Part shown: positions 4,068-53,255 of the stretch, piece after piece | Layout of the letters: each line of letters begins with the position of its first letter | Numbering within the stretch: position 1 is the stretch's first letter | Assembly: GCF_900609065.1 (NCBI RefSeq) | Contig: NZ_UXAU01000020.1 | Location: 62,001-126,000, forward strand | Source: Arthrobacter ulcerisalmonis | GTDB taxonomy: Bacteria; Actinomycetota; Actinomycetes; Actinomycetales; Micrococcaceae | Direction of reading: 5' to 3' | DNA: 64,000 nt | Notes under the pieces: model-generated | Databases searched by the model: none | Seen by the model: the letters and a program-made list of their open reading frames with translations, nothing else | What the model was told of the DNA's origin: nothing | Program-made: the position numbers and the translations under genes

Positions 4068-5531
4068 ATGGAAAGCATGAAACCTGCATCTAAAAGCGCT
4101 CCCCGCCCGGCAGCGATCCTGGCAATCATCCTCGCCAGCTACTTCATGATCCTGCTGGACAACTCGGTCATCTTTACTGCACTGCCCAGCCTGCAGGGTG
4201 ACCTGCAGTTGAACACGACGGAACTCTCCTGGGTCCAGAATGCCTACACACTGGTCTTCGGTGGGCTGCTGCTGCTCGGCGCCCGGGCCGGGGACCTGCT
4301 GGGACGCCGGCGCGTTTTCGTGGTCGGCCTGGTGGTGTTCTCTGTCGCATCCCTGCTGATCGGGCTTGCACCGGCTGGCTGGTGGGCCATCGCCGGCCGC
4401 GCCGTCCAAGGCATCGGAGCAGCGATCGTTGCCCCCGCTTCGCTGTCTTTGCTGACGGCGAGTTTCCCAGAAGGCCGGGAACGCACCCGGGCGATCGCCC
4501 TCTACGGCGCCACCGCGGGGATCGGCGCAAGTCTCGGCCTGGTCATCGGCGGCGCGCTGGCCGACTGGATCTCCTGGCGGGCCGGGTTCTTCGTCAACGT
4601 ACCCCTTGGCGCGATCATGATCGCCCTCGCTCCCCGGGTCCTGCCGGAAAGCGACCGGGCCACCGGCCGTTTCGATCTGTTCGGAGCGCTCAGCGCCACG
4701 CTGGGAGTGGGCGCGCTCGTGTTCGGCATCATCAACAGCGCCGATGCGGGCTGGAACGCTCCTGTTGCGCGCACGGCCATCAGTGCCGGCGTCGTACTTC
4801 TGGTTATTTTCGTGCTGATCGAACGCAAGGCCGCGCAGCCGATCATGCCGTTGCGCCTGTTCGCAAGCCGCCGTCGCACCGGAGCCTACCTTGCCCGTTT
4901 CCTCTATTTGGGCGCGATGATCGCGTTTTTCTTCTTCACCACCCAGTTCATGCAGGGAGTTCTCGGATTCGATCCGTTGCATGCCGGCATGGGCTTCCTG
5001 CCCATGACCGCGGTCAACTTCGTAGTCGCCATGAGCATCCCGCGACTGCTGGGCCGGACGCCGGTCTCGGTCGCGCTGCTGGCCGGTATTTTGCTCACCC
5101 TCGCGGGGATGTTCTGGCTCAGCCGGGTCGACGTCGGCTCCTCCTACGTGACAGGCGTGGCACTGCCGATGATTCTCATCGGCACCGGCCAGGGTTTGGC
5201 GTTTGCGCCACTGACGTCCTTCGGTATTCTCGGCGCCCCGGCCTCTGACGCAGGGGCGGCATCAGGTTTGGTGAACACTTTCCACCAGATCGGCACCTGC
5301 CTGGGACTGGGCATCGCGGTCGCCGCCGCGGCCACCGTCCCCACGGTGGGTCCTGCCGCAGCCCACCTGTCCGCCGAGGTCAGCGCGGCACTCACCGCCG
5401 GCAGTGTCCTGCTCCTCCTGGCCGTTGTCATTACGGCGGTCCTCATCCTGCCTGCGGATCTGGCGGCCCGACGAAGCAGAACACCGGTCCTGACCGCACC
5501 GAAACTCGAGCCTGTCCGGCCAGGGAGGTAA
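4068..5531 (+). CDS. MFS drug-type exporter (DHA2/EmrB-QacA-like)
   Basis: 487 aa from the ATG at 4068 (a second ATG at 4077 is possible). About 14 hydrophobic segments fit the DHA2 subfamily. LLLLGARAGDLLGRRRVF is the motif-A loop between helices 2 and 3, and GAAIVAPASLSLL and GATAGIGASLGLVIGG match family motifs. Such proteins expel hydrophobic compounds by proton antiport. It is divergent from an MmyB-like regulator and followed four bases later by an aldo-keto reductase, so the three genes probably form a detoxification unit. The substrate cannot be read from sequence. Confidence 0.85.
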   Translation: MESMKPASKSAPRPAAILAIILASYFMILLDNSVIFTALPSLQGDLQLNTTELSWVQNAYTLVFGGLLLLGARAGDLLGRRRVFVVGLVVFSVASLLIGLAPAGWWAIAGRAVQGIGAAIVAPASLSLLTASFPEGRERTRAIALYGATAGIGASLGLVIGGALADWISWRAGFFVNVPLGAIMIALAPRVLPESDRATGRFDLFGALSATLGVGALVFGIINSADAGWNAPVARTAISAGVVLLVIFVLIERKAAQPIMPLRLFASRRRTGAYLARFLYLGAMIAFFFFTTQFMQGVLGFDPLHAGMGFLPMTAVNFVVAMSIPRLLGRTPVSVALLAGILLTLAGMFWLSRVDVGSSYVTGVALPMILIGTGQGLAFAPLTSFGILGAPASDAGAASGLVNTFHQIGTCLGLGIAVAAAATVPTVGPAAAHLSAEVSAALTAGSVLLLLAVVITAVLILPADLAARRSRTPVLTAPKLEPVRPGR

Positions 5532-5535
5532 TCAC

Positions 5536-6468
5536 GTGCCCTCCCACAACCCAGCACATCTGAATACCGTGAAAGGCATGAACATGGAACTCACACTCGA
5601 CAACGGCGTCACCATGCCAGCCCTGGGCCTGGGCGTCTTCCAAAGCGCCCCGGAGCAGACGACGGCGGCCGTTGAGGCCGCGCTCGCTGCCGGGTACCGG
5701 CACATCGATACCGCCGCAGCGTACGGCAACGAACGAGAGGTCGGCGAAGGGATCAGGAACTCGGGACTTGACCGTTCCGAGGTGTTCGTCGAGACCAAGG
5801 TCTGGGTCAGCGACTATGGCTACGATCAGACGCTGCACGCCTGGGAGAAGGCAGCTGGAAAGCTCGGCCTCGATCACTTGGACCTGCTCATCCTGCATCA
5901 GCCTGCGCCGGACCGGTTCGAGAAGACCATCGCCGCCTACAAGGCCCTGGAATCCCTGCTGGCCGACGGGCGGGTGCGGGCGATCGGCGTCAGCAACTTC
6001 ATGCCACACCACCTGAAGCAGCTGCTCGAAGAAACGGACATCATCCCTGCGGTCAACCAGATCGAACTGCACCCGTACTTCGCCCAGCCGGACGTCCAGG
6101 CGATCGACGCCGAGCACGGGATTCTCACCCAGGCCTGGTCACCGATCGGCGGCATCACTTTCTACCCCGGGTGGGGCGGTGAAGACCGCCGCAGCGTGAT
6201 GGAAGACCCCACCATCGCCGGCGTCGCGCAGGCGCACGGCAAGACCCCGGCGCAAGTGATGTTGCGCTGGCATCTGCAACAGGGCCGCTCAGCCATCCCC
6301 AAGTCAATTAATCCGGCGCGCATCGCCGAGAACTTCGACGTCTTCGACTTCGAGCTTTCCGAAACTGAGCTCGCGGCCGTCGACGCTCTCCACACCGGCG
6401 TGCGTAGCGGACCGGACCCCGACGAGGCCCGCGAAGAGCGCTTCGCCATGGTCATCCCCGAAGCCTAA
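5536..6468 (+). CDS. Aldo/keto reductase (2,5-diketo-D-gluconate reductase-like)
   Basis: 310 aa from the GTG at 5536, which has GGGAGG seven bases upstream; an ATG at 5584 preceded by AAAGG would give a more typical 294 aa, and both are plausible. The AKR catalytic tetrad is visible: Asp58 and Tyr63 in HIDTAAAYGNE, Lys88 in VETKVW, His121 in LILHQP. GRVRAIGVSNF and the late PKSINPARIAENFDVFDFEL stretch bind NADPH in this family. It reduces aldehydes or ketones in the cytoplasm. It is translationally coupled to the MFS exporter upstream and followed by a second, only distantly related AKR. Confidence 0.88.
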   Translation: MPSHNPAHLNTVKGMNMELTLDNGVTMPALGLGVFQSAPEQTTAAVEAALAAGYRHIDTAAAYGNEREVGEGIRNSGLDRSEVFVETKVWVSDYGYDQTLHAWEKAAGKLGLDHLDLLILHQPAPDRFEKTIAAYKALESLLADGRVRAIGVSNFMPHHLKQLLEETDIIPAVNQIELHPYFAQPDVQAIDAEHGILTQAWSPIGGITFYPGWGGEDRRSVMEDPTIAGVAQAHGKTPAQVMLRWHLQQGRSAIPKSINPARIAENFDVFDFELSETELAAVDALHTGVRSGPDPDEAREERFAMVIPEA

Positions 6469-6488
6469 GAGAGCAGGAAATAATCAGC

Positions 6489-7517
6489 ATGGAATACCGT
6501 CTTCTTGGCCGCACTGGTGTGCGGGTCAGTCCCTTGTGCCTGGGCGCAATGATGTTCGGCCCCTGGGGCAACGATGACCGCGCCGATGCCACCCGCATTA
6601 TCCATCGAGCCCTCGATGCGGGGATCAACTTCATCGACACCGCTGACGTTTACTCCGGTGGGGCATCCGAGGAGATCGTCGGGCAGGCCATGGGGAGCCG
6701 TCGCGACGACGTGTTCCTCGCTACCAAGTTCTTCATGCCCATGAACGAGGACGATCCCAACCAGCGCGGCGGGTCCCGGCGCTGGATCATCCGCGAGGTC
6801 GAAAACTCACTGCGGCGGCTGAACACTGACTACATCGACCTCTATCAGGTCCACCGGCCCAGTCCGGACACCGATGTGGAGGAAACCCTGGGCGCCCTTA
6901 CGGACCTGGTCCGCCAAGGAAAGGTCCGCTACCTCGGCTCCTCGTCGTACTCCGGATCCCAGATTGTGGAATCCCAGTGGGCGTCACGGGAACGCCGCTT
7001 GGAACGCTTCGTCACGGAGCAGCCGCCGTACTCAATCTTGGCTCGCGGTATCGAAGAGGACGTCCTCCCCACGGTGCAACGGCACGGCATGGGCACCCTC
7101 ACCTACAGCCCGCTGGGCGGTGGATGGCTCTCCGGCCGCTGGCGGAAAGATGCGGCGTCCGCTCCCACCTCGAGTGCCCGCCCGAGCGCCCGGTTCGACA
7201 TGACCCGCCCGGAGAATCAGCGCAAGCTCGATGTCGTCGAAGAACTCGCCCAGCTTGCCGAACAGGCCGGACTCAGCCTCATTGAGTTGGCTATTGCGTT
7301 CGTCATCAACCACCCCGGCGTCACGTCAGCCATCGTTGGACCACGCACCATGGAACAGCTCGAGTCCTACCTGCCCGCGGCCGACGTCGCGTTGTCCAGT
7401 GACGTGCTGGACCGCATCGACGAGCTCGTCGCCCCCGGCGTCACCATCAACCCGGACGTCAACAGCTACGGCGCGAACGAACTCACCGCGCTCGCACGCC
7501 GACGGGCACGACCATGA
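6489..7517 (+). CDS. Aldo/keto reductase, second type
   Basis: 342 aa with a start 20 bases after the previous gene. The tetrad Asp50/Tyr55 (FIDTADVYSGG), Lys80 (LATKFF) and His122 (YQVHRP) is intact. The N-terminus MEYRLLGRTGVRVSPLCLG and the length are typical of the YajO/Tas-like or KCAB-like AKR branch rather than the branch of its neighbour. It is probably co-transcribed with the MFS exporter and first AKR. A role in reducing reactive carbonyls under control of the MmyB-like regulator is inferred from context. Confidence 0.87.
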   Translation: MEYRLLGRTGVRVSPLCLGAMMFGPWGNDDRADATRIIHRALDAGINFIDTADVYSGGASEEIVGQAMGSRRDDVFLATKFFMPMNEDDPNQRGGSRRWIIREVENSLRRLNTDYIDLYQVHRPSPDTDVEETLGALTDLVRQGKVRYLGSSSYSGSQIVESQWASRERRLERFVTEQPPYSILARGIEEDVLPTVQRHGMGTLTYSPLGGGWLSGRWRKDAASAPTSSARPSARFDMTRPENQRKLDVVEELAQLAEQAGLSLIELAIAFVINHPGVTSAIVGPRTMEQLESYLPAADVALSSDVLDRIDELVAPGVTINPDVNSYGANELTALARRRARP

Positions 7518-20812: not shown

Positions 20813-21019
20813 ATGATCAATCTCATTGATGACGTGCGCCGTAGTCGCCGCACGTCACACCGTCTCAGCATTGAGAAAGTCGGTCTTGCCGCGGTTTCCG
20901 TCACGTGTGCAGCGGTGTTGCTGCCGGCGATCGGGTTTCACGCCATTGCCACGTCCCTGACCTTCGCCCGGAAGGCCCAAGCACCAGCGGATGTGGAGCA
21001 CAGTTACCTCATCACGTAG
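20813..21019 (+). CDS. Small hypothetical membrane protein, 68 aa
   Basis: The product has a basic N-terminus (DVRRSRRTSHRLS) and one probable membrane helix (KVGLAAVSVTCAAVLLPAIGF). I do not recognise it. It lies 67 bases after the ParA-like gene in the same direction and is followed at once by a strong terminator, which supports it being expressed, possibly with the ATPase. Confidence 0.5.
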   Translation: MINLIDDVRRSRRTSHRLSIEKVGLAAVSVTCAAVLLPAIGFHAIATSLTFARKAQAPADVEHSYLIT

Positions 21020-21080: not shown

Positions 21081-21185
21081 CCACCAACCCTCCCGGAGCT
21101 TTCACGCCTGTAACCCCATCCCTCCCGGAGCTGTTGCGCCCAAAACGGCAGCCCTCCCGGAGCTGTTGCGCCCTTTACCTGCTGG
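21081..21185 (+). repeat. Array A of the 32-bp phased CTCCCGGAG repeat
   Basis: CTCCCGGAG starts at 21090, 21122 and 21154, exactly 32 bp apart, after a CCACCAACC flank. The 23 bases between cores differ, but copies 2 and 3 share CTGTTGCGCCC after the core. The third unit runs over the last codons and stop of the convergent GAF/ANTAR gene (stop at 21175-21177). The same layout recurs at 46741 and, inverted, at 51414. Confidence 0.9.
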
Positions 21186-21915
21186 ATTTGGCCGTCTGGT
21201 CCGACGTCAGGTTTTGCAGAACGCTTTCGGCCACGCTGGAGACTTGGAGGCCACGCAGTTGCGAGGTGTGGGCCAGCTTCCCGAAGGCGTCCGAATAGGT
21301 GGAACGCGTTTGGGCCATGATCACTCCGCAGGCCACGTCAATGGATTTGCGGCTTTCCAGGACAGTGCCCAGGTTGTCTGCTGCTGACCGGATGCCGTGT
21401 ACTTCGAGCGCCAGTTTGAGGCTATGCGATGCCACAGCGGCGAACCGGTGAGCTTCCCCTACTACCTCGGGCGCGAACTTGAACCCGGCGGGTCCCAGCA
21501 GCACCAAGGCGCAGGTTGAGCCGGCGTCTAACCGGACCGGAATGGCCAAGCTGCCACCGTACGTACCTACCACCACTGAGCCTACGGAGCCCAAGGCATC
21601 TGCCATGGGTCCGCCGCCGTCTTCCAACGCCGCGAGTGTTGCGGCCCGCTGGTTGTTGGCTGCGCTGAGAGTGCCTCGTCGCACTCGCTTCAAGGTGGCC
21701 GCACAGTCAATATCGACGCCGGCCAGGCTGCTGATGGTCTGCGCCGCTACCTCAGTGAGGCGGCGCAGGGAGCCCTGCTCGGACTCCGTGTTGGAAACCA
21801 GGTCCAACAAATACCCTGATGGCACAGATGCTGGCTGGTCCGCCTGCTGTCCATTCCCCACTTCACTTGGCTCAGTTGCCAAGTCTTGCCCCACCACTAA
21901 TGGACGTGCTGTCAC
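21175..21915 (-). CDS. GAF-type sensor with C-terminal ANTAR RNA-binding domain
   Basis: 246 aa from the GTG at 21915, which has GGGGGC seven bases upstream; the longer frame to 22068 lacks this support. The N-terminal two-thirds resembles a GAF domain (SLAIPVRLDAGSTCALVLLG). The last 60 residues are an ANTAR domain (SRKSIDVACGVIMAQTRSTY, then SDAFGKLAHTSQLRGLQV). ANTAR proteins bind paired hairpins in nascent RNA and prevent termination. The 3' end overlaps repeat array A. A second GAF/ANTAR protein lies at 29257. Confidence 0.85.
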   Translation of the reverse strand: MTARPLVVGQDLATEPSEVGNGQQADQPASVPSGYLLDLVSNTESEQGSLRRLTEVAAQTISSLAGVDIDCAATLKRVRRGTLSAANNQRAATLAALEDGGGPMADALGSVGSVVVGTYGGSLAIPVRLDAGSTCALVLLGPAGFKFAPEVVGEAHRFAAVASHSLKLALEVHGIRSAADNLGTVLESRKSIDVACGVIMAQTRSTYSDAFGKLAHTSQLRGLQVSSVAESVLQNLTSDQTAKSSR

Positions 21916-22396
21916 TGTATTGCCCCCGTAAAAAACATTTCCCCCATGCTGCACATAGGCTACGTACGAACTTATGAGAGTGGGAGCTGGGGCACACGAG
22001 TACGGGGTACTCGACTTTGGGAGCAGCCAACTCGTGTGTACTCGCTTTTGTGCAAGTGAAGTACGCATCGCTACCCGCGGGCACGGTGCCGGGCCGGTTA
22101 AGCCCGAAGATCGGGAACTACGCGCGGAAGACCAGCCACCACGGTAGGATGGGGGAGTACCGGCCCTCTCGCCGTGCAGCCTTTCCAGTTCTGGCGTCAG
22201 TCCGGAGCAAGGTTGCTTCGGCTACCGGGGTCACCGGTCCCGTTGTAGGGGGACAGCACCTCTGTGCTGGTTCCCGTTCGTAGCATCTGGCTGCGCTGCA
22301 GGGTCCGGGAGGGGCTTTAATTGGCCCCGAAGTGTCCCGGCAGTCCACGTCGGGTCCGCCCGTCCGCTGAATTGCGGTCTATCGGAGGAGAAGTTC
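21916..22396. other. 481-base divergent gap with several small inverted repeats
   Basis: No supportable gene. Inverted repeats occur at 22224-22238 (ACCGG/CCGGT), 22254-22269 (CAGCAC, CTCT loop, GTGCTG) and 22311-22328 (GGGGC/GCCCC). The last lies 69 bases before the helicase start. The stretch may be a structured 5' leader or small RNA, but it has no signature of tmRNA, RNase P RNA, SRP RNA or a riboswitch that I recognise. Confidence 0.3.
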
Positions 22397-45558: not shown

Positions 45559-46255
45559 ACTGCTTGAGGCTCCGGTCTCTTCTCCTGATCCCTCTTTGGT
45601 CCCCGCCGTTTCCGCTGGTGCGCCTGACACCGCTGGTGCGAAGCGCTCCGGCAAGCACGCTGCCGGCGAGAAAAAGAGCGGCGGCATCCTGGCCGCCGTC
45701 GGACGCAGCCTGAGCATGGCCGCCATGCTGGTGGCGCTGTTCGCCGCCGCCGTTCTGATCGTGCTGCCGTTCGCCACCGGATCGCACACCTACACGGTGC
45801 TGACCAACTCGATGGCACCCAAGTTCCCGCCCGGCACGTTCATGGTCATGAAGCCGGCCGCGTTCGACACCCTGCAGTACGGCGACGTCATCACCTTCCA
45901 GCTCTACTCGGGACGCCCCGACGTTGAAACGCACCGCATCGTGGGCTTCGGCGCCACCCAAGACGGCGAAAAGACCATCATCACCCGCGGCGACAACAAC
46001 GGCGCCAACGATCCCGAGCCCGTCCGCGCCATGCAGGTCAAGGGCAAACTGTTCTACGCCGTTCCCTACGTGGGTTTCGCCGCCAACGCCCTGGGCAACG
46101 CAGACCGCGACACCTGGACCACCTTGGCCGCCGCCGGCCTCATCGGCTACGGCGCCATCATGGTGTTCACCTCCGTCCGCAAGAACCGCAAGACGCGCAC
46201 TGAATCTGAGGCTACTGACACTGGCGCCGCTGCCAACTCTGTTGAGGTGCGGTAA
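45548..46255 (+). CDS. SipW-type signal peptidase I (Ser/His class)
   Basis: 235 aa from a GTG overlapping the previous gene by 11 bases. A cytoplasmic Ala/Ser/Lys-rich N-terminus of about 50 residues, a first membrane helix (about 52-78), the nucleophile in VLTNSMAPKFPPG (Ser88), His129 in DVETHRIVGF in place of the usual Lys, and RGDNNGAND with the conserved Asp. A second helix (TTLAAAGLIGYGAIMVF) lies near the C-terminus. The Ser-His-Asp pattern is that of SipW and eukaryotic/archaeal signal peptidases. It should process the three neighbouring exported proteins. Confidence 0.88.
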   Translation: MAAELLEAPVSSPDPSLVPAVSAGAPDTAGAKRSGKHAAGEKKSGGILAAVGRSLSMAAMLVALFAAAVLIVLPFATGSHTYTVLTNSMAPKFPPGTFMVMKPAAFDTLQYGDVITFQLYSGRPDVETHRIVGFGATQDGEKTIITRGDNNGANDPEPVRAMQVKGKLFYAVPYVGFAANALGNADRDTWTTLAAAGLIGYGAIMVFTSVRKNRKTRTESEATDTGAAANSVEVR

Positions 46256-46731
46256 TGCCGAAGTTGCGGAAGCTGCCCGGCGCGGCCCTGGCCGTGGGCG
46301 CCTTCATCCTGACAGTCCTGCTGGGCATCGGCGGCGCACCGGCGTCGGCCTTGTGGCAGCAGAGCGCAGCGGCCACCATGACGGTCACGGCCTCCACCAC
46401 CTGGCCCGGTCCCGCGTTCGATACCGGCTGTTCCAACGTCTGGTTCAACCGCTACATCGTGCTGAGCTACTCGCTGCCCAGCACGCCGAAGACGCTCACC
46501 TACGCAGCCAGCCGACCGGACGGTACCTTCTCCGCACCGGACACCGCCAGCGCAGTGAAAAACGGCAACGAATGGGTCTCTGTGGACAATGACATCTTTG
46601 CCAAGAGCGCAGGCATGAACACCGTGGTCATCCGCATGACGGCAACGTTCGCGAACGGTTCAGTCTCCACGTCGGATGTCTCGGTGGTGCTCGAGTCAGC
46701 CGGTGGCTCCCGATGGATCTACTGCGCCTGA
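46255..46731 (+). CDS. Third exported protein of the SipW cluster
   Basis: 158 aa; the ATG shares one base with the peptidase stop (TAATG). The signal helix (residues 8-30) is followed by ASALWQQSAAATMTVTAST, again with the A-L-W motif seen in the second protein. The mature part is beta-rich with two Cys (FDTGCSNVWF and the C-terminal IYCA), which may form a disulfide. I do not recognise the fold. The tight coupling suggests it is needed with the peptidase. Repeat array B begins directly at its stop codon. Confidence 0.78.
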   Translation: MPKLRKLPGAALAVGAFILTVLLGIGGAPASALWQQSAAATMTVTASTTWPGPAFDTGCSNVWFNRYIVLSYSLPSTPKTLTYAASRPDGTFSAPDTASAVKNGNEWVSVDNDIFAKSAGMNTVVIRMTATFANGSVSTSDVSVVLESAGGSRWIYCA

Positions 46732-46836
46732 CCACCAACCCTCCCGGAGCTTTTACGGGTGTTTGGCTGACGCTCCCGGAGCTTTTGCGGGTGTTTGGCT
46801 GACGCTCCCGGAGATTTTGAAGCCGGGGGAGTCGAC
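46732..46836 (+). repeat. Array B of the 32-bp phased CTCCCGGAG repeat
   Basis: After CCACCAACC, CTCCCGGAG starts at 46741, 46773 and 46805, exactly 32 bp apart. Units 1 and 2 are identical at 31 of 32 positions; unit 3 keeps the core and then diverges (ATTTTGAAGCC). The array abuts the stop of the third exported-protein gene and runs toward the 3' end of the convergent PAP2 gene. Confidence 0.92.
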
Positions 46837-46937
46837 GACGGCGCCGCCAACGAAAGGCGAGAAGCGGCGTTGGGTGGGTGCCGCCGTCGTGCGTTCAACG
46901 CAGCATGATCCGCGGAACGGGCCTTAAACATGGAAGT

Positions 46938-47012
46938 CCCGACACCGCTGTATGGGGGGCAAGAGCGGCGCCGGGACGACATGGGGGCTGCTGTTATACA
47001 GCCGGTGCCGGG
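46938..47012. repeat. Long imperfect inverted repeat in the 46732-47136 gap
   Basis: CCCGACACCGCTGTAT (46938-46953) and ATACAGCCGGTGCCGGG (46996-47012) pair with one mismatch and one bulge around 42 bases. A 91-aa open frame overlaps the region but lacks any recognisable feature. It may be a terminator-like hairpin or a miniature-element remnant. Confidence 0.55.
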
Positions 47013-47136
47013 CCGATGGGGGGATCGACCTGGCATGGTCAACTATGGTGCTCGCGGCTCAAGAAAATGGGCTGGAATTCATCAAGGTTTCGTCAGTTTT
47101 GGTGGGGAAGTCCTCGAGTTCGTCCCGGGCCCCGCG

Positions 47137-48042
47137 TCAGGGAGTTGTTGCGGACCGGCGTCGGACGGCGTAGGCAAAGAGAGCGGTGACGGCCACGGTG
47201 GCTAGATAGCCGGCGATGACGATCAGCGCGATTCCAGCCCAGAAATAGTTGGTGACGCTGACTTGCTGCCAAGGGCTTGGTGCTATACGGGCGAGTGAAT
47301 AGACCGCCACGAGAGCCCACGCCAGACCAATCAGTACCGGGAGCGTGATCCAGATGCGCGCCGAGCCGAGGTGCCCGCCGAACCCGTCCCACGAATTCCA
47401 CGAACCGCGCCGGACCACAAGCCACCCTGCGGGGATCATGAAGGCGCCCACCAACAGAAATGCGGCAATGACGTCGGCCGGACGATGCCATTGGTTGATG
47501 ACGGTGGACGCGCCGGATGCGATGGCAAAGGTGCCGCCAACGAACCCGGCGAAGGGCCGCCACTTGGGCGATGACATCAGGAACAACGCGGCCGCCGCGG
47601 ACGCAGCAAGGGTTGTGTGGCCGGACGGGAGCGAGTTCAGTTCCAGGGTGACCACACCGCGGTCTGGCCGAATCGGTAAGAATTCCTTGAGGACCTGGGT
47701 GGCTGCGTTGGCACCGATACAGGCAGCGACAGCGATTCCCGCCTCGGCCCACCGCCGTCGAATCACCGTCACGAAGAGGGCCACGATGGCCGAACCCACC
47801 AAGGATATTGCTGGCAGGGAATCGAGCAGCTGGGTGCTGGCTTGGCCAGCCTGTGCGCTGATGGCGGCGGCCTCCACGAGCGCGGACTCGTCAATGTACT
47901 GGCCGGTGGTGGTCTGGACGAAGAAATAGTAGGTCCCGATCAGTCCCGCGACGCAGGCCAGGGTTGCGAGCACGAAGAGCAAGCCCGAGCCCGGAGCGGG
48001 GCGGGCTGAGGTCTTGGATCGTGCTGAGTGCGAAACGGCCAT
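47137..48042 (-). CDS. PAP2-family membrane phosphatase
   Basis: 301 aa with seven or so hydrophobic segments. The three phosphatase motifs are KEFLPIRPDRG (K-x6-RP), LPSGHTTLAA (PSGH) and SGASTVINQWHRPADVIAAF (a variant of SR-x5-H-x3-D in which the Arg is replaced). Enzymes of this family remove phosphate from undecaprenyl-pyrophosphate or phosphatidic acid at the outer face. The ordering fits bacterial type 2 lipid phosphatases with an added C-terminal helix pair. It is convergent with the SipW cluster. Confidence 0.85.
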   Translation of the reverse strand: MAVSHSARSKTSARPAPGSGLLFVLATLACVAGLIGTYYFFVQTTTGQYIDESALVEAAAISAQAGQASTQLLDSLPAISLVGSAIVALFVTVIRRRWAEAGIAVAACIGANAATQVLKEFLPIRPDRGVVTLELNSLPSGHTTLAASAAAALFLMSSPKWRPFAGFVGGTFAIASGASTVINQWHRPADVIAAFLLVGAFMIPAGWLVVRRGSWNSWDGFGGHLGSARIWITLPVLIGLAWALVAVYSLARIAPSPWQQVSVTNYFWAGIALIVIAGYLATVAVTALFAYAVRRRSATTP

Positions 48043-48122
48043 TAGTTAAGGGTGGCACAGAAAACTGGGAGTGGGCTCGTTGGCTGACCGCTGGGGGACC
48101 GGCGCCCGCGGACCGCCGCAGG

Positions 48123-48128
48123 TACAGT
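48123..48128 (+). promoter_or_regulatory. -10 box of a probable leaderless menC promoter
   Basis: TACAGT ends six bases before the menC ATG, and no Shine-Dalgarno sequence intervenes. Confidence 0.45.
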
Positions 48129-48134
48129 GAAGCC

Positions 48135-49205
48135 ATGCCTGCCGCCGAGCCCCTGACGCCAACCGGCCTGCCGGACCAGACCCAGCACCTTCCTTCCTTC
48201 GAGGAGATTCTGGGCAGCGTCCATGTGGTCAGCCTGCCCATGCGGGTCCGTTTTCGCGGAATCATGGAACGCGAAACGTTGCTGCTGCGCGGCCCAGCCG
48301 GGTGGGGCGAGTTTTGCCCCTTCCCCGAATACGGCGACGCCGAGTCGTCCCGTTGGTTGGACGCCGCGATCGAGGCGGCCTGGGTGGGCTTCCCAGCTAC
48401 CGTTCGGCAGCGGATCCCCATCAACGCGACAGTTCCAGCCATCCCGGCGGACAGGGTTGCCGACCTTCTGGCCCGGTTTGGCCGAGTCGACGCCGTCAAG
48501 GTCAAGGTGGCGGAGCAGGGGCAGGAGCTGGCCGACGACGTCGCCCGCGTTTCGGCTGTCCGCGCGGCCTTGCCGCACGCCGCCATCCGCGTTGACGCGA
48601 ACGCAGGCTGGGACGTTGCCGCCGCCGTGACCGCCCTGACCCGACTCGCTGACGTGGGGCTGGAGTATGCAGAGCAACCGGTCCCCAGCATCGACGGTTT
48701 GGCCCAAGTCCGAGCCCTGCTGCAGGCAGCGGGCACGCCCGTGTTGATTGCAGCGGACGAAAGTGTCCGCAAGGAAGATGACCCGCTTAAGGTGGCGCGT
48801 GCTGGCGCGGCGGACCTGATCGTCGTCAAGGTGGCCCCCCTGGGCGGCGTACGGCGCGCCCTGGACATCGTGTCGCAGGCTGGACTTCCCGCCGTCGTGA
48901 GTTCCGCCCTGGACACGTCCGTGGGGATCCGCGCCGGGCTGGCGCTCGCCGCCGCGCTCCCGAACCTGCCGTATGCCTGCGGGTTGGGCACGGTGTCGCT
49001 CTTCGAATCGGACATCACGGCAGACCCCCTGGTGGCCGACGACGGCGGCATCAGCCTCCGCGATGCCGTCCCGGACGCCGGGCTGCTGGAGCGGTTCGCG
49101 GCGTCGGCGGAACGCAGAGATTGGTGGGTTGAGCGGTTGCGTCGGGTGCATGCGGTGGTGGCGGCCGGCGGTTCTGCCAGACGCCTGAACGCCACCCGCA
49201 ATTAA
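48135..49205 (+). CDS. menC: o-Succinylbenzoate synthase
   Basis: 356 aa from the ATG at 48135. Enolase-superfamily barrel motifs: the Lys pair region VDAVKVKVAEQG, the metal-ligand strand RVDANAGWD (Asp), LEYAEQPVPS (Glu), IAADESV (Asp) and LIVVKVAPLGGV with the second catalytic Lys. It dehydrates SHCHC to o-succinylbenzoate in menaquinone synthesis. The first 25 residues are extra relative to short homologues. Other menaquinone genes follow nearby (menD, menF, menG). Confidence 0.9.
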   Translation: MPAAEPLTPTGLPDQTQHLPSFEEILGSVHVVSLPMRVRFRGIMERETLLLRGPAGWGEFCPFPEYGDAESSRWLDAAIEAAWVGFPATVRQRIPINATVPAIPADRVADLLARFGRVDAVKVKVAEQGQELADDVARVSAVRAALPHAAIRVDANAGWDVAAAVTALTRLADVGLEYAEQPVPSIDGLAQVRALLQAAGTPVLIAADESVRKEDDPLKVARAGAADLIVVKVAPLGGVRRALDIVSQAGLPAVVSSALDTSVGIRAGLALAAALPNLPYACGLGTVSLFESDITADPLVADDGGISLRDAVPDAGLLERFAASAERRDWWVERLRRVHAVVAAGGSARRLNATRN

Positions 49206-49290
49206 CCTGGGCGCCACGTAGGCGACTGCTGGGGGACGGGCGCGGCTGGCACGGTGGACGGGTTCCCACCTCCCCCCGGAAGGCTCCCCG

Positions 49291-51360
49291 ATGTCTGAAA
49301 CAACTGATCGCACGTTCCCGCTGCTTCCCATGCTCGGCCACACCAAAGGCAAGCGCAGTGCCGTGACCTGCGCCCTGAAGTGCGACAACGCCTGCGCCAA
49401 CGACGTGTGCAACACCAGCTCCAACGCCTACTTCCGCGACATCGCCTCCGCGACCCTGTCCCGCCGCTCCGCCCTCGGATTGGGCGCCGCCGGTGCAGTC
49501 GCCGTCGTCCTCGGTTCCGCCGTGACGTCCGCAGAACCGGCCTCCGCCGCCGGACTGTCTGCCGCAGCCAAAGACGGCTACGGGAAGTCCAAGCTCAAGT
49601 TCAACGCCATTGCCTCGATCGATGCCAGCGTGGATGCTGTGACGGTCCCGAAGGGCTTCACCTGGCAGCCGGTGATCCGCTGGGGCGACCCAATTTTCAA
49701 GAACTCGCCTCGTTTCGATGCGAACAACCAGACTGCGGCGGCCCAGGAGGGGCAGTTCGGTTACAACAACGACTACACCGACATCCTGGAAATTCCCGGC
49801 AGCAAGGGCAGGCGCGCGGTGTTGTTCGCCAACCACGAATACACCAACGAGAACATCATGTTCCCGGCCACCATGCCGGCGGGCGACGTGCGGGCCGTGG
49901 GGGCAGCCGCGCACGGCCTCTCCGTCGTGGAACTCGAGCGCAAGAACAGCAACAAGCCGTGGAGCTACGTCCAGGGCGCACGGCTCAACCGCCGCTACCT
50001 GAACAACACCAAATATGAGCTGACCGGTCCGGTAGCGGGCTCGCCGCTGGTCCGGACCGTCCAGGATCCGGCCGGGCGCACCATCCTGGGGACCCTGGGC
50101 AACTGCTCGGGCGGGACCACGCCCTGGGGCACCATCCTCTCCGGTGAGGAAAACTTCAACGGCTACTTTGTGGCACCCGGAACCTCAGCCGGCGATGCGC
50201 GCTACGGGCTCAGCGCCAAGCCGACCGCCCGGCAGTGGGAGCTCGACGACCCGCGCTGGGACACCCGCAACGCAGGCTACGAAAACGAGGCCAACCGGTT
50301 CGGCTGGATCGTTGAGGTTGACCCGTTCGACCCCACCTCGACCCCGAAAAAGCACTCATCCTTGGGCCGGTTCAAGCACGAAAGCGCCAACGTCATCGTG
50401 GCCAAGTCCGGTCATGTGGTGGCCTACTCGGGCGACGACGAGCGCTTCGACTACCTTTACAAGTTCGTCTCTGCCCAGAAGTACCGGGAGGGCGATCGCA
50501 AGCACAACATGACGCTCCTGTCCGCAGGCAACCTTTACGTCGCGAAGTTCACGGGCAACTCACCGGCCGCCGAGATCACCGGTACGGGTGCGGTCCCGGC
50601 TGACGGATCGTTCGACGGCGTCGGCGAATGGCTGCCGCTGGTGGTGGATGGCAAGTCCGCCGTTCCCGGCATGAGCGTCGAAGAAGTCCTGGTCTACACC
50701 CGCCTGGCCGCCGACAAAGTGGGCCCCACCAAGATGGACCGCTGCGAAGACGTGGAACCGAGCCTCCGCACCGGCAAGGTCTACGTGGCCTGCACCAACA
50801 ACTCGGACCGCGGCACCGGCACCAAGGAAGCCGCCACCGAGGTCAACCCGCGCAACCAAAACCGCGACGGCCACATCGTGGAGATCACCGAAACCGGCGA
50901 CCAGACGTCCACGAAGTTCCAGTGGAACCTGCTGATGGTCTGCGGGGACCCAGCCCAGGGCGACGTCACCTACTTCTCCGGCTTCCCCGTGGACAAGGTG
51001 TCGCCGATTTCCTGCCCCGACAACCTGGCCTTCGACTCCGTGGGCAACCTGTGGATCTCAACGGATGGGGCGCCGTCGGGCATTGGCCGCGCGGACGGCC
51101 TGTTCAAGGTCACCCTGGACGGTAAGGAACGCGGCAGGGTGGAACAATTCCTCGCCGTCCCCCGCGAAGCCGAAACCTGCGGACCCATCGTGCACGACGA
51201 CGAGGGCAGCGTTTTCGTCGCCGTGCAGCACCCGGGGGAGAACGGTTCGTTCGCGGCCCAGACGTCGTACTTCCCGGATTACGTGCGTGAAGGCGCCAAG
51301 CCGAAGCAGGGGCAGGCCCGGATTCCCCGTCCCGCCGTCATCCAGGTTTTCCGCGGCTAG
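49291..51360 (+). CDS. PhoX family alkaline phosphatase (DUF839)
   Basis: 689 aa. After a Cys-containing segment (CALKCDNACANDVCNTSSNA), a twin-arginine-type signal (LSRRSALGLGAAGAVAVVLG) starts near residue 57, so export is by Tat. The remainder is the six-bladed propeller of PhoX: FKNSPRFDANNQ, FANHEYTNENIMFP, GTILSGEENFNGYF, NRFGWIVEVDPFDP and CPDNLAFDSVGNLWISTDG. PhoX enzymes use calcium and iron to release phosphate from organic esters outside the cell and are usually induced by phosphate limitation; no PHO box was identified in the short upstream gap. Confidence 0.87.
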   Translation: MSETTDRTFPLLPMLGHTKGKRSAVTCALKCDNACANDVCNTSSNAYFRDIASATLSRRSALGLGAAGAVAVVLGSAVTSAEPASAAGLSAAAKDGYGKSKLKFNAIASIDASVDAVTVPKGFTWQPVIRWGDPIFKNSPRFDANNQTAAAQEGQFGYNNDYTDILEIPGSKGRRAVLFANHEYTNENIMFPATMPAGDVRAVGAAAHGLSVVELERKNSNKPWSYVQGARLNRRYLNNTKYELTGPVAGSPLVRTVQDPAGRTILGTLGNCSGGTTPWGTILSGEENFNGYFVAPGTSAGDARYGLSAKPTARQWELDDPRWDTRNAGYENEANRFGWIVEVDPFDPTSTPKKHSSLGRFKHESANVIVAKSGHVVAYSGDDERFDYLYKFVSAQKYREGDRKHNMTLLSAGNLYVAKFTGNSPAAEITGTGAVPADGSFDGVGEWLPLVVDGKSAVPGMSVEEVLVYTRLAADKVGPTKMDRCEDVEPSLRTGKVYVACTNNSDRGTGTKEAATEVNPRNQNRDGHIVEITETGDQTSTKFQWNLLMVCGDPAQGDVTYFSGFPVDKVSPISCPDNLAFDSVGNLWISTDGAPSGIGRADGLFKVTLDGKERGRVEQFLAVPREAETCGPIVHDDEGSVFVAVQHPGENGSFAAQTSYFPDYVREGAKPKQGQARIPRPAVIQVFRG

Positions 51361-51378
51361 CTGTACTGCTGGCCGACG

Positions 51379-51492
51379 CTCCCGGAGATCTGGTGGGCTC
51401 TCGCCCGCAGGATCTCCGGGAGGGATGGGCTCTTGCCTGCGGGTTCTCCGGGAGGGATGGGCTCTTGCCTGCGGGTTCTCCGGGAGGGTTGG
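51379..51492 (-). repeat. Array C of the 32-bp phased repeat, inverted, with one opposing copy
   Basis: On the minus strand CTCCCGGAG cores occupy 51478-51486, 51446-51454 and 51414-51422, exactly 32 bp apart; the two units whose plus-strand starts are 51414 and 51446 are identical over 32 bases. A plus-strand core at 51379-51387 faces the last one, making CTCCCGGAGATC/GATCTCCGGGAG a 12-bp stem with further inner pairing. The minus-strand entry flank again ends CCAACC. The array fills the gap between phoX and menD. Confidence 0.92.
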
Positions 51493-51512
51493 CCGGGTGG
51501 GACACTGGAGTA

Positions 51513-53255
51513 GTGACTTCGCGCAACGAACCAGCCCCCCAACCTACGCCCGAATTGCCGCAGCTCAGTGCCATGGAAGCGGCGCGACGTGCCGTCGAAA
51601 CGCTGCTCGACGGCGGTGTGCAGCACGTGGTGGTCAGCCCGGGTTCGCGGTCCGCACCGCTGGCATATGCGCTGGCGGAGGCGTCGACCGCGGGTCGGGT
51701 TGAGCTGATGGTCCGCATTGACGAGCGGGCCGCCGGGTTCACGGCGTTGGGCTTAGCCCTGGCAACGGGCTCCCCGACGGCGGTGCTCACCACGTCTGGG
51801 ACCGCCGTCGGGAATCTCATCCCGGCCGTCATGGAGGCAAACCACGCCGCCGTGCCGTTGCTGGTGCTGTCCGCTGACCGGCCGGACGAATTGCGCGGAA
51901 CGGGAGCCAACCAGACCACGGTGCAGACCGACCTCTTTGGCGACCATGTCCGGTTCGCCGCAGATATCGCTGCTGGTAGCGATCCCGAGCGGGCAATCCG
52001 GACTGGCCTGTCCGCCGCCACGGGAGCCCTCGCCACCATCCCGCCCGGGCCTGTCCAACTGAATCTCGCCTTCCGGGACCCGCTGGTACCCGGCACCGGC
52101 GACACCCTTCCCGAGCAGGCGGCCAGGCAAAGGTTCCGGATCGCCACGGAACCCCTGGTCATGAACCTGCCGGCCGCCTCGACGGGGCTTCCGGTCCGGC
52201 GGACGGTGGTGCTGGCCGGACACGACGCCGGTCCGGTCGCCGAGGCCTTCGCCCGGGCGCACGGCCTGCCGCTGCTGGCCGAGCCGTCGTCCAACGCGCG
52301 TTTCGGTCCCAACGCCGTGGGCCCGTACCGGCTGCTCCTGGAGCACTTCGGCGATCGCGCCGCCCAGCCGATCGAGCGGGTGATCCTCTTTGGCCGGGCG
52401 ACCCTGACCCGTCCGGTGGCCTCACTCCTTGCGCGCGCCGAGATTCCGTCGGCCCTCTATGCGCCCGTTCCCGTGGCCTGGTTTGAACCGGGCCGGCGGA
52501 CGGAGCTGGTACTGGAAAGCCTTGCAGACCTGGCGGATTTCGCCGGTCGAGGAGCGCCGGAGTGGCTCGATGCGTGGCTGCTTGCCGGGTCGGCAGCTCA
52601 ACATGCCCTTGACGGCATACTTGCGGACACGGCGGCGGCCACCGGCCCATCCGTGGCGGCGCTGGTCTGGAAGCATGCCCGGGGACAACTCCTTCTGGGG
52701 TCCTCCAACGGCATCCGGGACGTGGACCTGGCTGGCGTGCCCGCGACGCAACCTGCAGCGACCGTCTTTGCGAACCGGGGACTTGCTGGCATCGACGGCA
52801 CGATCTCTACCGCCACGGGAATCGCGATCGGCGCCGACCAGCCCACCACGGCGCTGATGGGCGATATCACTTTCCTGCACGACGCCGGTGGGCTCTTCCT
52901 GGGCCATGGCGAGGACCAGCCAAACCTGCGGATCGTGGTCCTCAACGATGCCGGCGGTGCCATTTTCGACCTCCTGGAGCACGGCCAAGTCTCGGCAGCG
53001 GGGACGTACGCGGGCGCCGTCGAACGGCTGTTCGGAACCCCGCACGCTGTCAACCTCGCGGCACTCGCGGCGGCGTACGGCGTCGAGCATTCCCTGGTCA
53101 CCACGACGGCGGGGCTGGCGCAGGCTTTGGCGCGTCCCGTTTCGGGGCGGAGCATCATCGAGGTCCAAGCGGACCGCAGTGCCCTGCGCGCCCTCCATGC
53201 CAACATCTCCCAGGCCGTAGCCGTGGCGGCTGAAGGCGTACTGCCAGCGCGCTGA
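51513..53255 (+). CDS. menD: 2-Succinyl-5-enolpyruvyl-6-hydroxy-3-cyclohexene-1-carboxylate synthase
   Basis: 580 aa from the GTG at 51513; the frame is open back into the repeat array, so 51513 (or ATG 51573) is the sensible start. VVVSPGSRSAPLAYAL and RIDERAAGFTALGLAL begin the thiamine-binding fold; MGDITFLHDAGGLFLG and VLNDAGGAIFDLLEHG form the diphosphate/metal site. It joins isochorismate and 2-oxoglutarate in menaquinone synthesis. Its promoter must overlap or adjoin repeat array C, whose last core ends 26 bases before the GTG. Confidence 0.93.
   Translation: MTSRNEPAPQPTPELPQLSAMEAARRAVETLLDGGVQHVVVSPGSRSAPLAYALAEASTAGRVELMVRIDERAAGFTALGLALATGSPTAVLTTSGTAVGNLIPAVMEANHAAVPLLVLSADRPDELRGTGANQTTVQTDLFGDHVRFAADIAAGSDPERAIRTGLSAATGALATIPPGPVQLNLAFRDPLVPGTGDTLPEQAARQRFRIATEPLVMNLPAASTGLPVRRTVVLAGHDAGPVAEAFARAHGLPLLAEPSSNARFGPNAVGPYRLLLEHFGDRAAQPIERVILFGRATLTRPVASLLARAEIPSALYAPVPVAWFEPGRRTELVLESLADLADFAGRGAPEWLDAWLLAGSAAQHALDGILADTAAATGPSVAALVWKHARGQLLLGSSNGIRDVDLAGVPATQPAATVFANRGLAGIDGTISTATGIAIGADQPTTALMGDITFLHDAGGLFLGHGEDQPNLRIVVLNDAGGAIFDLLEHGQVSAAGTYAGAVERLFGTPHAVNLAALAAAYGVEHSLVTTTAGLAQALARPVSGRSIIEVQADRSALRALHANISQAVAVAAEGVLPAR

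Follow-up and report, generated by a model that had tools for sequence, protein, structure and literature searches.

Several described systems come close to the arrays reported here. Like intrinsic terminators, whose traits are general knowledge, the arrays take a 3'-end position and form a strong hairpin in their complete elements; unlike them, they have no U-tract, carry sequence-conserved units outside the stem and keep an exact spacing. Factor-dependent roadblock terminators with repeated sites, such as the Sal boxes bound by TTF-I, offer a second comparison, since oriented sites for a protein, set in tandem after a gene, would behave like them; the arrays differ in that they are known from sequence alone and that their binding protein is putative. 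With the uptake sequences of Pasteurellaceae and Neisseriaceae (USS/DUS), as far as partial accounts and general knowledge go, the arrays have in common a short core with dialects and inverted pairs at gene ends; measured against the same partial accounts, they differ by the lack of isolated copies above chance and by tandem phasing. BIMEs of E. coli are known as topological or nucleoid sites. REP sequences and REPINs are, in the excerpted text of PMC3116915, repeated and extragenic, form inverted pairs with hairpins, occur in clusters and fall into lineage-specific sequence families. All of these properties are shared by the arrays, for BIMEs as judged from general background; compared with the same excerpt, the arrays differ by head-to-tail phasing at 32 bp, direct-only arrays without a fold, arm distances in steps of 10.5 bp, the lack of a Y1 (RAYT) transposase in 30 of 32 genomes and a site that is kept while the core changes. 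No description of such arrays was found in the open-licence literature among the matches listed.

The window is the whole 64-kb stretch of Arthrobacter ulcerisalmonis DNA that was analysed. The initial annotation had claimed three arrays with 32-bp phasing, and these were confirmed, each with three exact cores (Table 1); 32 letters correspond to about three turns of the DNA helix. The facing core next to array 3 is an addition to the sites listed at first.

Table 1. Positions of the arrays and of the facing core in the window.
Feature	Position	Strand	Details
Array 1: three CTCCCGGAG units	21084..21173	+	cores 21090, 21122, 21154; period 32
Array 2: three CTCCCGGAG units	46735..46831	+	cores 46741, 46773, 46805; period 32
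Array 3: three CTCCCGGAG units	51412..51492	-	cores 51414, 51446, 51478; period 32
Facing core with AT	51379..51389	+	11-bp perfect inverted repeat CTCCCGGAGAT / ATCTCCGGGAG with 51412-51422; core offset 35 bp

Array 1 is preceded by the terminator-like hairpin of a small ORF on the + strand (stop at 21019) and followed by the stop of an ANTAR gene on the - strand (21175-22068). Array 2 begins 9 nt past the stop of a + ORF (46255-46731), with a PAP2 gene on the - strand (47137-48042) downstream, and array 3 sits in the leader of a + ORF for a TPP enzyme (menD-like) and points at the 3' end of phoX (49291-51360); the ANTAR, PAP2 and PhoX identities of the neighbours of arrays 1, 2 and 3 were taken from Pfam. 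Twelve copies of the exact 9-mer CTCCCGGAG are present in the 64 kb versus about 1.2 expected, and the expectation for pairs at 32 bp is 1e-5 (Markov-1); two lone exact CTCCCGGAG cores (9519, 62151) are no more than chance level in the window. When folds were tested against shuffled sequences, neither array 1 (z +0.37) nor the whole of array 2 (z +0.41) did better than the shuffles, and the region 51370-51500, which comprises array 3 and the facing core, gave z -4.07. In array 2, the third core could pair with CCGGGGGAG at 46823-46831. Rfam yielded no match above gathering score within the 64-kb window, and a terminator scan of 46400-51700 returned four terminator-like hits, equal to the number in shuffles, none of them at array 2 or 3.

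The phasing is not confined to this window. In the own genome (G000; 3,516,484 bases in 73 contigs), all 33 same-strand CTCCCGGAG pairs with a gap of 8-38 bp had a gap of 23, i.e., a period of 32, so that the random spacings which would have spoken against a phased family were not seen; the pairs were split 21 versus 12 between the strands, and the pattern read backwards gave 0. A sequence-only unit model, R1, marked 107 places in G000 at E <=1. Thirty-four stretches around R1 clusters, from which three weak places with E 0.5-0.9 (C29, C62, C69:269159) were left out, contained 54 arrays with 120 units (score >9 bits), at 1-5 units per array. Spacings within arrays were 32 in 63 of 66 cases, 64 in two and 84 in one, and arms within 170 bp of each other were facing in 18 cases versus 0 back-to-back. 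The family is thus repetitive, as shown by these counts, and extragenic, since 80 complete elements of the genus lie in gene gaps, with five distances overlapping a called gene end. CRISPR-type arrays were set aside on anatomy, because of the 1-5 units of the own arrays, the divergence of the units and an orientation tied to stop codons.

In the 32-bp unit, a 9-bp species-specific core is followed by approximately nTnnnGC; then come a short run of AT (positions 20-23), a stretch of G/C and, ahead of the next core, RAC(G/C). The notion that the spacers between cores vary freely did not survive, since the unit has a consensus of roughly CTCCCGGAGCTNTTACGGCCGAACCGGCAACC. In its full form, the element comprises two direct units, a 13-nt loop region and two inverted units, with core offsets of 32/22/32; this exact form was found in 78 of 206 genomes of the genus, versus 0 in the backward control. 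An alignment of 80 distinct complete copies (A3), in which the cores were fixed by the search pattern, showed the core CTCTCTCAC, TTAATGC or similar, R/S/S, AT at 20-23, where 118 of 160 arms are entirely AT, G/C at 25-28 and RACG; over all dialects, the positions T11, G15, C16, A30 and C31 stood out. The inverted doublet with hairpin that is typical of REPINs thus exists in these 78 genomes; in the window, by contrast, arrays 1 and 2 consist of direct units alone.

Complete elements fold strongly: three of three that were folded gave z -12 to -20 versus shuffles. The inner hairpin has a stem of about 20 bp, in which 18 of 35 structure pairs had changed on both sides, with 216 such cells versus 90.8 in shuffles. 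Arms were also reshuffled only within genomes, because relatedness may inflate covariation counts; 54 of the 80 elements (from 10 genomes with three or more) could be used. At positions 26-29 pairing was then 0.648 versus 0.455, and none of 2000 reshuffles was as high, nor was any at positions 30-32; at 42-45 there were 25 of 2000. The outer arm showed no locus-specific pairing in the same comparison, neither at positions 10-14 (1202 of 2000 as high) nor at 15-25. Since only the inner pairs covary within genomes, what is retained of the inner unit is its stem, and of the outer unit its sequence; an outer pairing stem was rejected on these data, and the apparent outer-stem covariation across genomes is explained by genome-specific consensus. 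A mini-hairpin in each unit, i.e., the idea of a four-way junction, was likewise unsupported. As to a palindromic single unit, a trait of REP sequences, CTCCCGGAG is a near-palindrome, CTCTCTCAC is not, and pairing within arms was not clear, the best z being 3.1, for one column pair. The inner covariation might also stem from template switching that corrects palindromes instead of from selection, which counts against the reading preferred below.

An RNA or terminator role had been named initially as the alternative to a protein, and part of it stands, namely the locus-specific hairpin covariation in the complete elements of relatives; the missing U-tract and the missing fold of arrays 1 and 2 do not agree with it. 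In its plain form, this alternative would hold that the elements are common hairpin terminators of the intrinsic type which were duplicated and dispersed, and that the units matter as stem material and nothing else. The location at 3' ends, the covarying inner stem and the presence of another hairpin instead of an array in 9 of 26 relatives at the nitroreductase/pgm site (see below) would all suit such terminators. We regard them as improbable, because the run after the stem averages more A than T (160 arms) in place of a U-tract, arrays 2 and 3 coincide with no terminator-like hit in the stretch scanned, direct-only arrays fold no better than shuffles, outer units are conserved without locus-specific pairing, and a hairpin needs neither exact spacing nor helical stepping. 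A purely intrinsic terminator leaves the direct units unexplained, as direct-only arrays have no fold and the U-tract is missing.

The strictness of the spacing was examined in five sets of loci (S1-S5), which were selected on the basis of direct pairs or of the gene, the facing distance playing no part except for G289; S1 and S2 are selections from the direct pairs listed with gaps of 8-38. Among consecutive same-strand cores 9-170 bp apart, 341 of 427 were at 32 and 13 more at 64. Arms within 170 bp were facing in 119 cases versus 24 back-to-back. The offsets of facing arms, measured between the last core of the forward arm and the first core of the reverse arm, peaked at 12-14, 22, 32-33 and 43-44 among the 109 offsets of <=100 bp, with 17 at 11-16, 35 at 22, 13 at 31-35 and 17 at 41-45; elsewhere below 41 there were two (23 and 27). 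When the period was left free, 10.5-10.6 bp came out best. Once the 22 class was dropped (n=74), R was 0.705 and 0 of 3000 random sets were as high; omission of the three G289 loci, where the facing distance had been noticed at picking, raised R to 0.729. The single sets, again without the 22 class, agreed: best periods were 10.65 for S1 (n=23; 1 of 3000 random sets as high), 10.6 for S2 (n=18; 0 of 3000), 10.45 for the own genome (n=14; 0 of 3000) and 10.45 for the nitroreductase/pgm site (n=15; 0 of 3000). Counting each of the 36 distinct offsets once gave a period of 10.55 with R 0.485, and these offset statistics are to be read with the caveat that related loops might share descent.

The helical argument rests mainly on the classes 12-14, 22 and 32-33, each of which occurs in at least three dialects with unlike loops, because the values 44, 54, 76 and 86 are a base class with 32 added once or twice. 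For offsets <=40 without the 22 class (n=32), a period of 19.85 (R 0.84) was preferred to 10.5 (R 0.71), as two classes alone must give that; with the 22 class (n=67), the best free period was 10.0. The helical steps of the arm distances point to readout on one face of the DNA, and the earlier suggestion that a protein could contact the cores from one face fits, since facing arms, too, are set apart in steps of one helical turn. Direct spacing is almost never two or four helical turns, so that the direct period of 32 must have a further cause, at least partly recent duplication. In arrays with at least three units, adjacent spacers had a mean identity of 75% at positions 17-28 versus 37% for random pairs, so that the constancy of the period is explained in part by recent tandem duplication. 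Of 122 adjacent spacer pairs, picked at spacing 32, only 29 were <=50% identical. Chance or pure tandem duplication as the whole story was rejected in view of the 1e-5 pairs expected, the many dispersed loci and these dissimilar spacers.

It had been suggested that both core and spacing are kept. This holds for the spacing; the core CTCCCGGAG is replaced by others in the same architecture, even at one orthologous site. Among 59 genomes (the own, 36 others of the genus and 22 of the order), exact paired CTCCCGGAG cores occurred in two, the own and one in another family with a single match that was taken as chance. A collection of 84,980 species, a search of which may omit records close to the own genome, contained 41 stretches with an exact CTCCCGGAG pair; each had one or two matches, and they were scattered over many phyla and spacings and likewise taken as chance; one MAG (Chthonomonas) had three such stretches, one of them at period 32. 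Other cores with the same architecture, again mostly at 32 bp, were found in the genus: CTCTCTCAC, CTCCCTCAC, CCCGCTCAC, CCCCATCAC and CGCGCTCAC. Since the architecture recurs with these cores, mostly at 32 bp, it is the spacing that is conserved, and the 9-mer varies as a dialect of the species.

The regular expressions for the cores were composed after inspection of the data. With the core loosened to CTCCCKSAS, at least 10 pairs were present in 22 of 121 genomes of the genus (42 in the own, maximum 111 in G036; backward control <=9); among the matches listed, in which five of the 22 genomes are shown, most pairs were 32 bp apart. The pattern CTCNCTSAS with ACG before the second core, which the own dialect does not fit, matched in 20 of 245 genomes of the family, namely 12 of 18 of the genus, 7 of 15 of a sister genus (g45) and one of a third genus; the last was a single match at period 31 and was taken as chance, the backward control giving one match in each of five genomes. 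In a third loosening, applied to ten genomes from the comparison of the nitroreductase/pgm site, 9 of the 10 matched, with families of CCCGCTCAC, CCCCATCAC and CGCGCTCAC; nearly all pairs listed were at 32, and the control gave one match. Model R1 matched in 16 of 120 other genomes at E <=0.05; of 17 relative loci inspected, only L106 (G036) was recognised as a 32-bp array. With one element as query, phage sequences gave no match, and the plasmid search gave one partial match, to a megaplasmid of Arthrobacter sp. StoSoilB13 (NZ_AP024648.1), the best place covering 38% of the query. Tandem repeats of 32 bp but of different make-up, with CTCCCGCAG/CTCCCGCAC cores, were noticed at G032:C28:13723-13827 and G133:C21:200320-200424; those of G032 are in two registers, and both may be ordinary tandem repeats.

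Species dialects are also a feature of DNA-uptake sequences in Neisseriaceae and Pasteurellaceae, and the 9-bp core with an AT run and the inverted pairs at gene ends add to a likeness that is partly drawn from general knowledge. Uptake is hardly credible as an explanation nevertheless, as isolated exact CTCTCTCAC cores were not enriched: each of two genomes had 1 per 200 kb versus 1.35-1.44 expected, and the same stretches held 14 and 15 CTCTCTCAC cores within 150 bp of another core.

Orthologous sites allow some insight into the history of the arrays. The nitroreductase/pgm site was compared in the best 30 loci from 61 genomes, three of these loci being without synteny on the fetched stretch, and its arrays were sought with a regular expression composed after reading the site sequences. 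An array was present in the own genome and in 16 of 26 syntenic relatives (17 of 27), in five dialects; the spacing was exactly 32 in 15 of the 17, 31 in one and 33 in one. In six cases (own, L338, L349, L350, L352, L353), representing four dialects, the first core lies 2 nt past the stop, and in L357 the array is 75 nt farther down. By eye, seven of the nine relatives with another hairpin belong to one single-hairpin class and two have others; in one further relative the genes overlap. The single-hairpin class (L340, L341, L342, L348, L355, L360, L362) shows approximately CTCTATCACTTATGGTCC and its inverse, without tandem units; from CTCTATCACTTATGGTCC to the inverse the distance was 43-45 bp where measured.

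At the convergent thiD/TPP site, both genes were on the fetched locus in 9 of 21 relative loci. The own array is present, G015 has a CTCTCTCAC array, and G018 (L165) has CTCCCTCAC units 20 bp apart; the remaining relatives show other hairpins or short gaps. Other periods at the same loci, which according to the initial annotation would argue against a fixed phasing, were therefore encountered to a weak extent, in this one relative and in the two exceptions of the nitroreductase/pgm site. An intergenic word, GAGATCGCCGG, stands behind thiD once in L157 (G001) and twice in L169 (G014).

Two further genomes, G080 and G099, were compared over 200 kb each (aligned blocks 73-94% identical), and all five array sites of G080 had an array in G099. 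Four of these were found by the same regular expression; in one pair the difference is a single 32-bp unit at the stop codon, and one G099 copy is interrupted by an insertion sequence. The fifth has another core, CTCTCGCAC, in G099. Judging from such comparisons, array sites persist while cores differ, presumably by rewriting in place or by reinsertion.

Two structural differences were observed at arrays. An extra stretch of ~6.5 kb in G099 (C1 ~212900-219600, L327) is bordered on either side by CTCTCGCAC arrays of the same direction, and the corresponding place in G080 (C1 ~136270, L317) holds a single CTCTCTCAC array; a deletion or an insertion through recombination between arrays may have been the cause. 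At L328 ~5450-7025 (G099:C1 ~235450-237025), the hairpin of one element is interrupted by an insertion sequence whose ORF has an rve integrase core (PF00665), and G390 (L287) has this element without interruption; a label as IS256-like is unsupported by this domain.

Of the rival readings, the strongest sees the arrays as repeats like REP/REPIN, mobile without autonomy or selfish, in which an inverted doublet would be copied in trans by a putative enzyme, subfamilies would be amplified by lineage and selection would do no more than clear promoters and genes of copies. Lineage-specific core subfamilies, inverted doublets with stable hairpins (the three folded elements mentioned above), extragenic placement with 1 of 80 elements in a divergent gap, and a thiD gap filled differently among relatives are all as expected of it. 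Y1_Tnp (RAYT family, PF01797) was detected in only 2 of 32 genomes, the own genome being among the 30 without it, with controls positive in 5 of 14; another enzyme could serve for copying. The nitroreductase/pgm site bears arrays in several species, turnover between G080 and G099 is slow, as all five sites keep their array, and neither a target duplication nor a clean empty site was established among the loci compared. Phased direct arrays and helical stepping do not figure in the excerpted REPIN description (PMC3116915). On balance we think this rival somewhat unlikely; because the transposase is missing, the arrays are not filed as REP/REPIN, and they may still work like one.

Gene context was assessed with our own codon-score calls, which are not a standard annotation. 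The initial annotation had the arrays pointing to the 3' end of an oppositely oriented gene; this is so for the three arrays of the window, and genome-wide a closer rule is that they lie downstream of a gene on their own strand. Such a gene preceded 35 of 51 own arrays with a called upstream neighbour and did not precede 16, which counts against the reading preferred below; three of the 54 arrays were without such a neighbour and were left out. The distance from stop to core in the 35 sense arrays was 2 nt in 9, <=10 nt in 24 (one of them -12, overlapping a called gene) and >200 in four. The 80 complete elements were in 47 convergent, 32 co-directional and 1 divergent gaps, versus 51, 159 and 100, respectively, among 310 background gaps of at least 100 bp (Fisher p 2e-13 and 1e-10). 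These background gaps lie in loci that had been fetched for elements, and some of them hold incomplete arrays, so that they are no random sample of the genomes. In single-contig genomes (G074, G080, G099, G011, G001) the elements listed appear sparse in mid-contig, e.g., none is listed at 0.70-3.0 Mb of G080; among the loci listed, 18 of 55 counted by hand in four genomes, G080 not included, were in the middle half (P 0.007).

A bias for convergent gaps would also be expected of topological or nucleoid sites, where gyrase or an architectural protein would act as convergent transcription piles up supercoils, and AT runs at a fixed position of the unit as well as helical stepping would be compatible with them. 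A conserved enzyme such as gyrase is not expected to require changing dialects, and the 32 co-directional elements do not fit; sites of this kind are therefore quite improbable.

The reading which we prefer, and put forward tentatively, is that the arrays are REP/BIME-like 3'-boundary elements of Arthrobacter and a sister genus, bound by a putative co-evolving DNA-binding protein that would form a barrier to transcription. Head-to-tail units behind a stop codon would face an inverted set from the other side, with the innermost pair as a hairpin; a putative sequence-specific protein could bind several cores on one face of the helix, and its specificity would shift along with the core dialect. 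Bound protein and inner hairpin together might then be a barrier that stops or insulates transcription where two genes, mostly convergent ones, adjoin; REP/BIME clusters or factor-dependent terminators might act in a similar way. A boundary role fits with the location, the orientation and the finding that other hairpins take the place of arrays at corresponding gene ends, and from helical stepping together with the sequence-conserved outer units we infer a DNA-bound factor. A more specific proposal, which we hold to be unlikely, is a dialect-switching boundary system, where a predicted protein, its specificity differing between species, would read arrays that lie at gene ends in phase with the helix; at conserved sites the arrays would be rewritten in concert to match the new core, with the 32-bp and helical-turn spacing kept. 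Several dialects coexist within one genome in G009 and in G001, so that a co-evolution of one protein with one dialect is harder to hold.

If true, a dialect-switching system would give bacteria a counterpart to factor-dependent terminators, one whose sites co-evolve fast. The repeat family has a conserved geometry and not a conserved sequence, with five core dialects at one orthologous gene end. Should the elements be mobile, they would have spread without the transposase family known for REPs. The arrays merit annotation either way, as many 3' gaps of these genomes are filled by them. If a protein reads the arrays, Arthrobacter may separate neighbouring transcription units in an unrecognised way, and a natural dialect series would be available for studying how a regulator co-evolves with sites that are scattered by the dozen.
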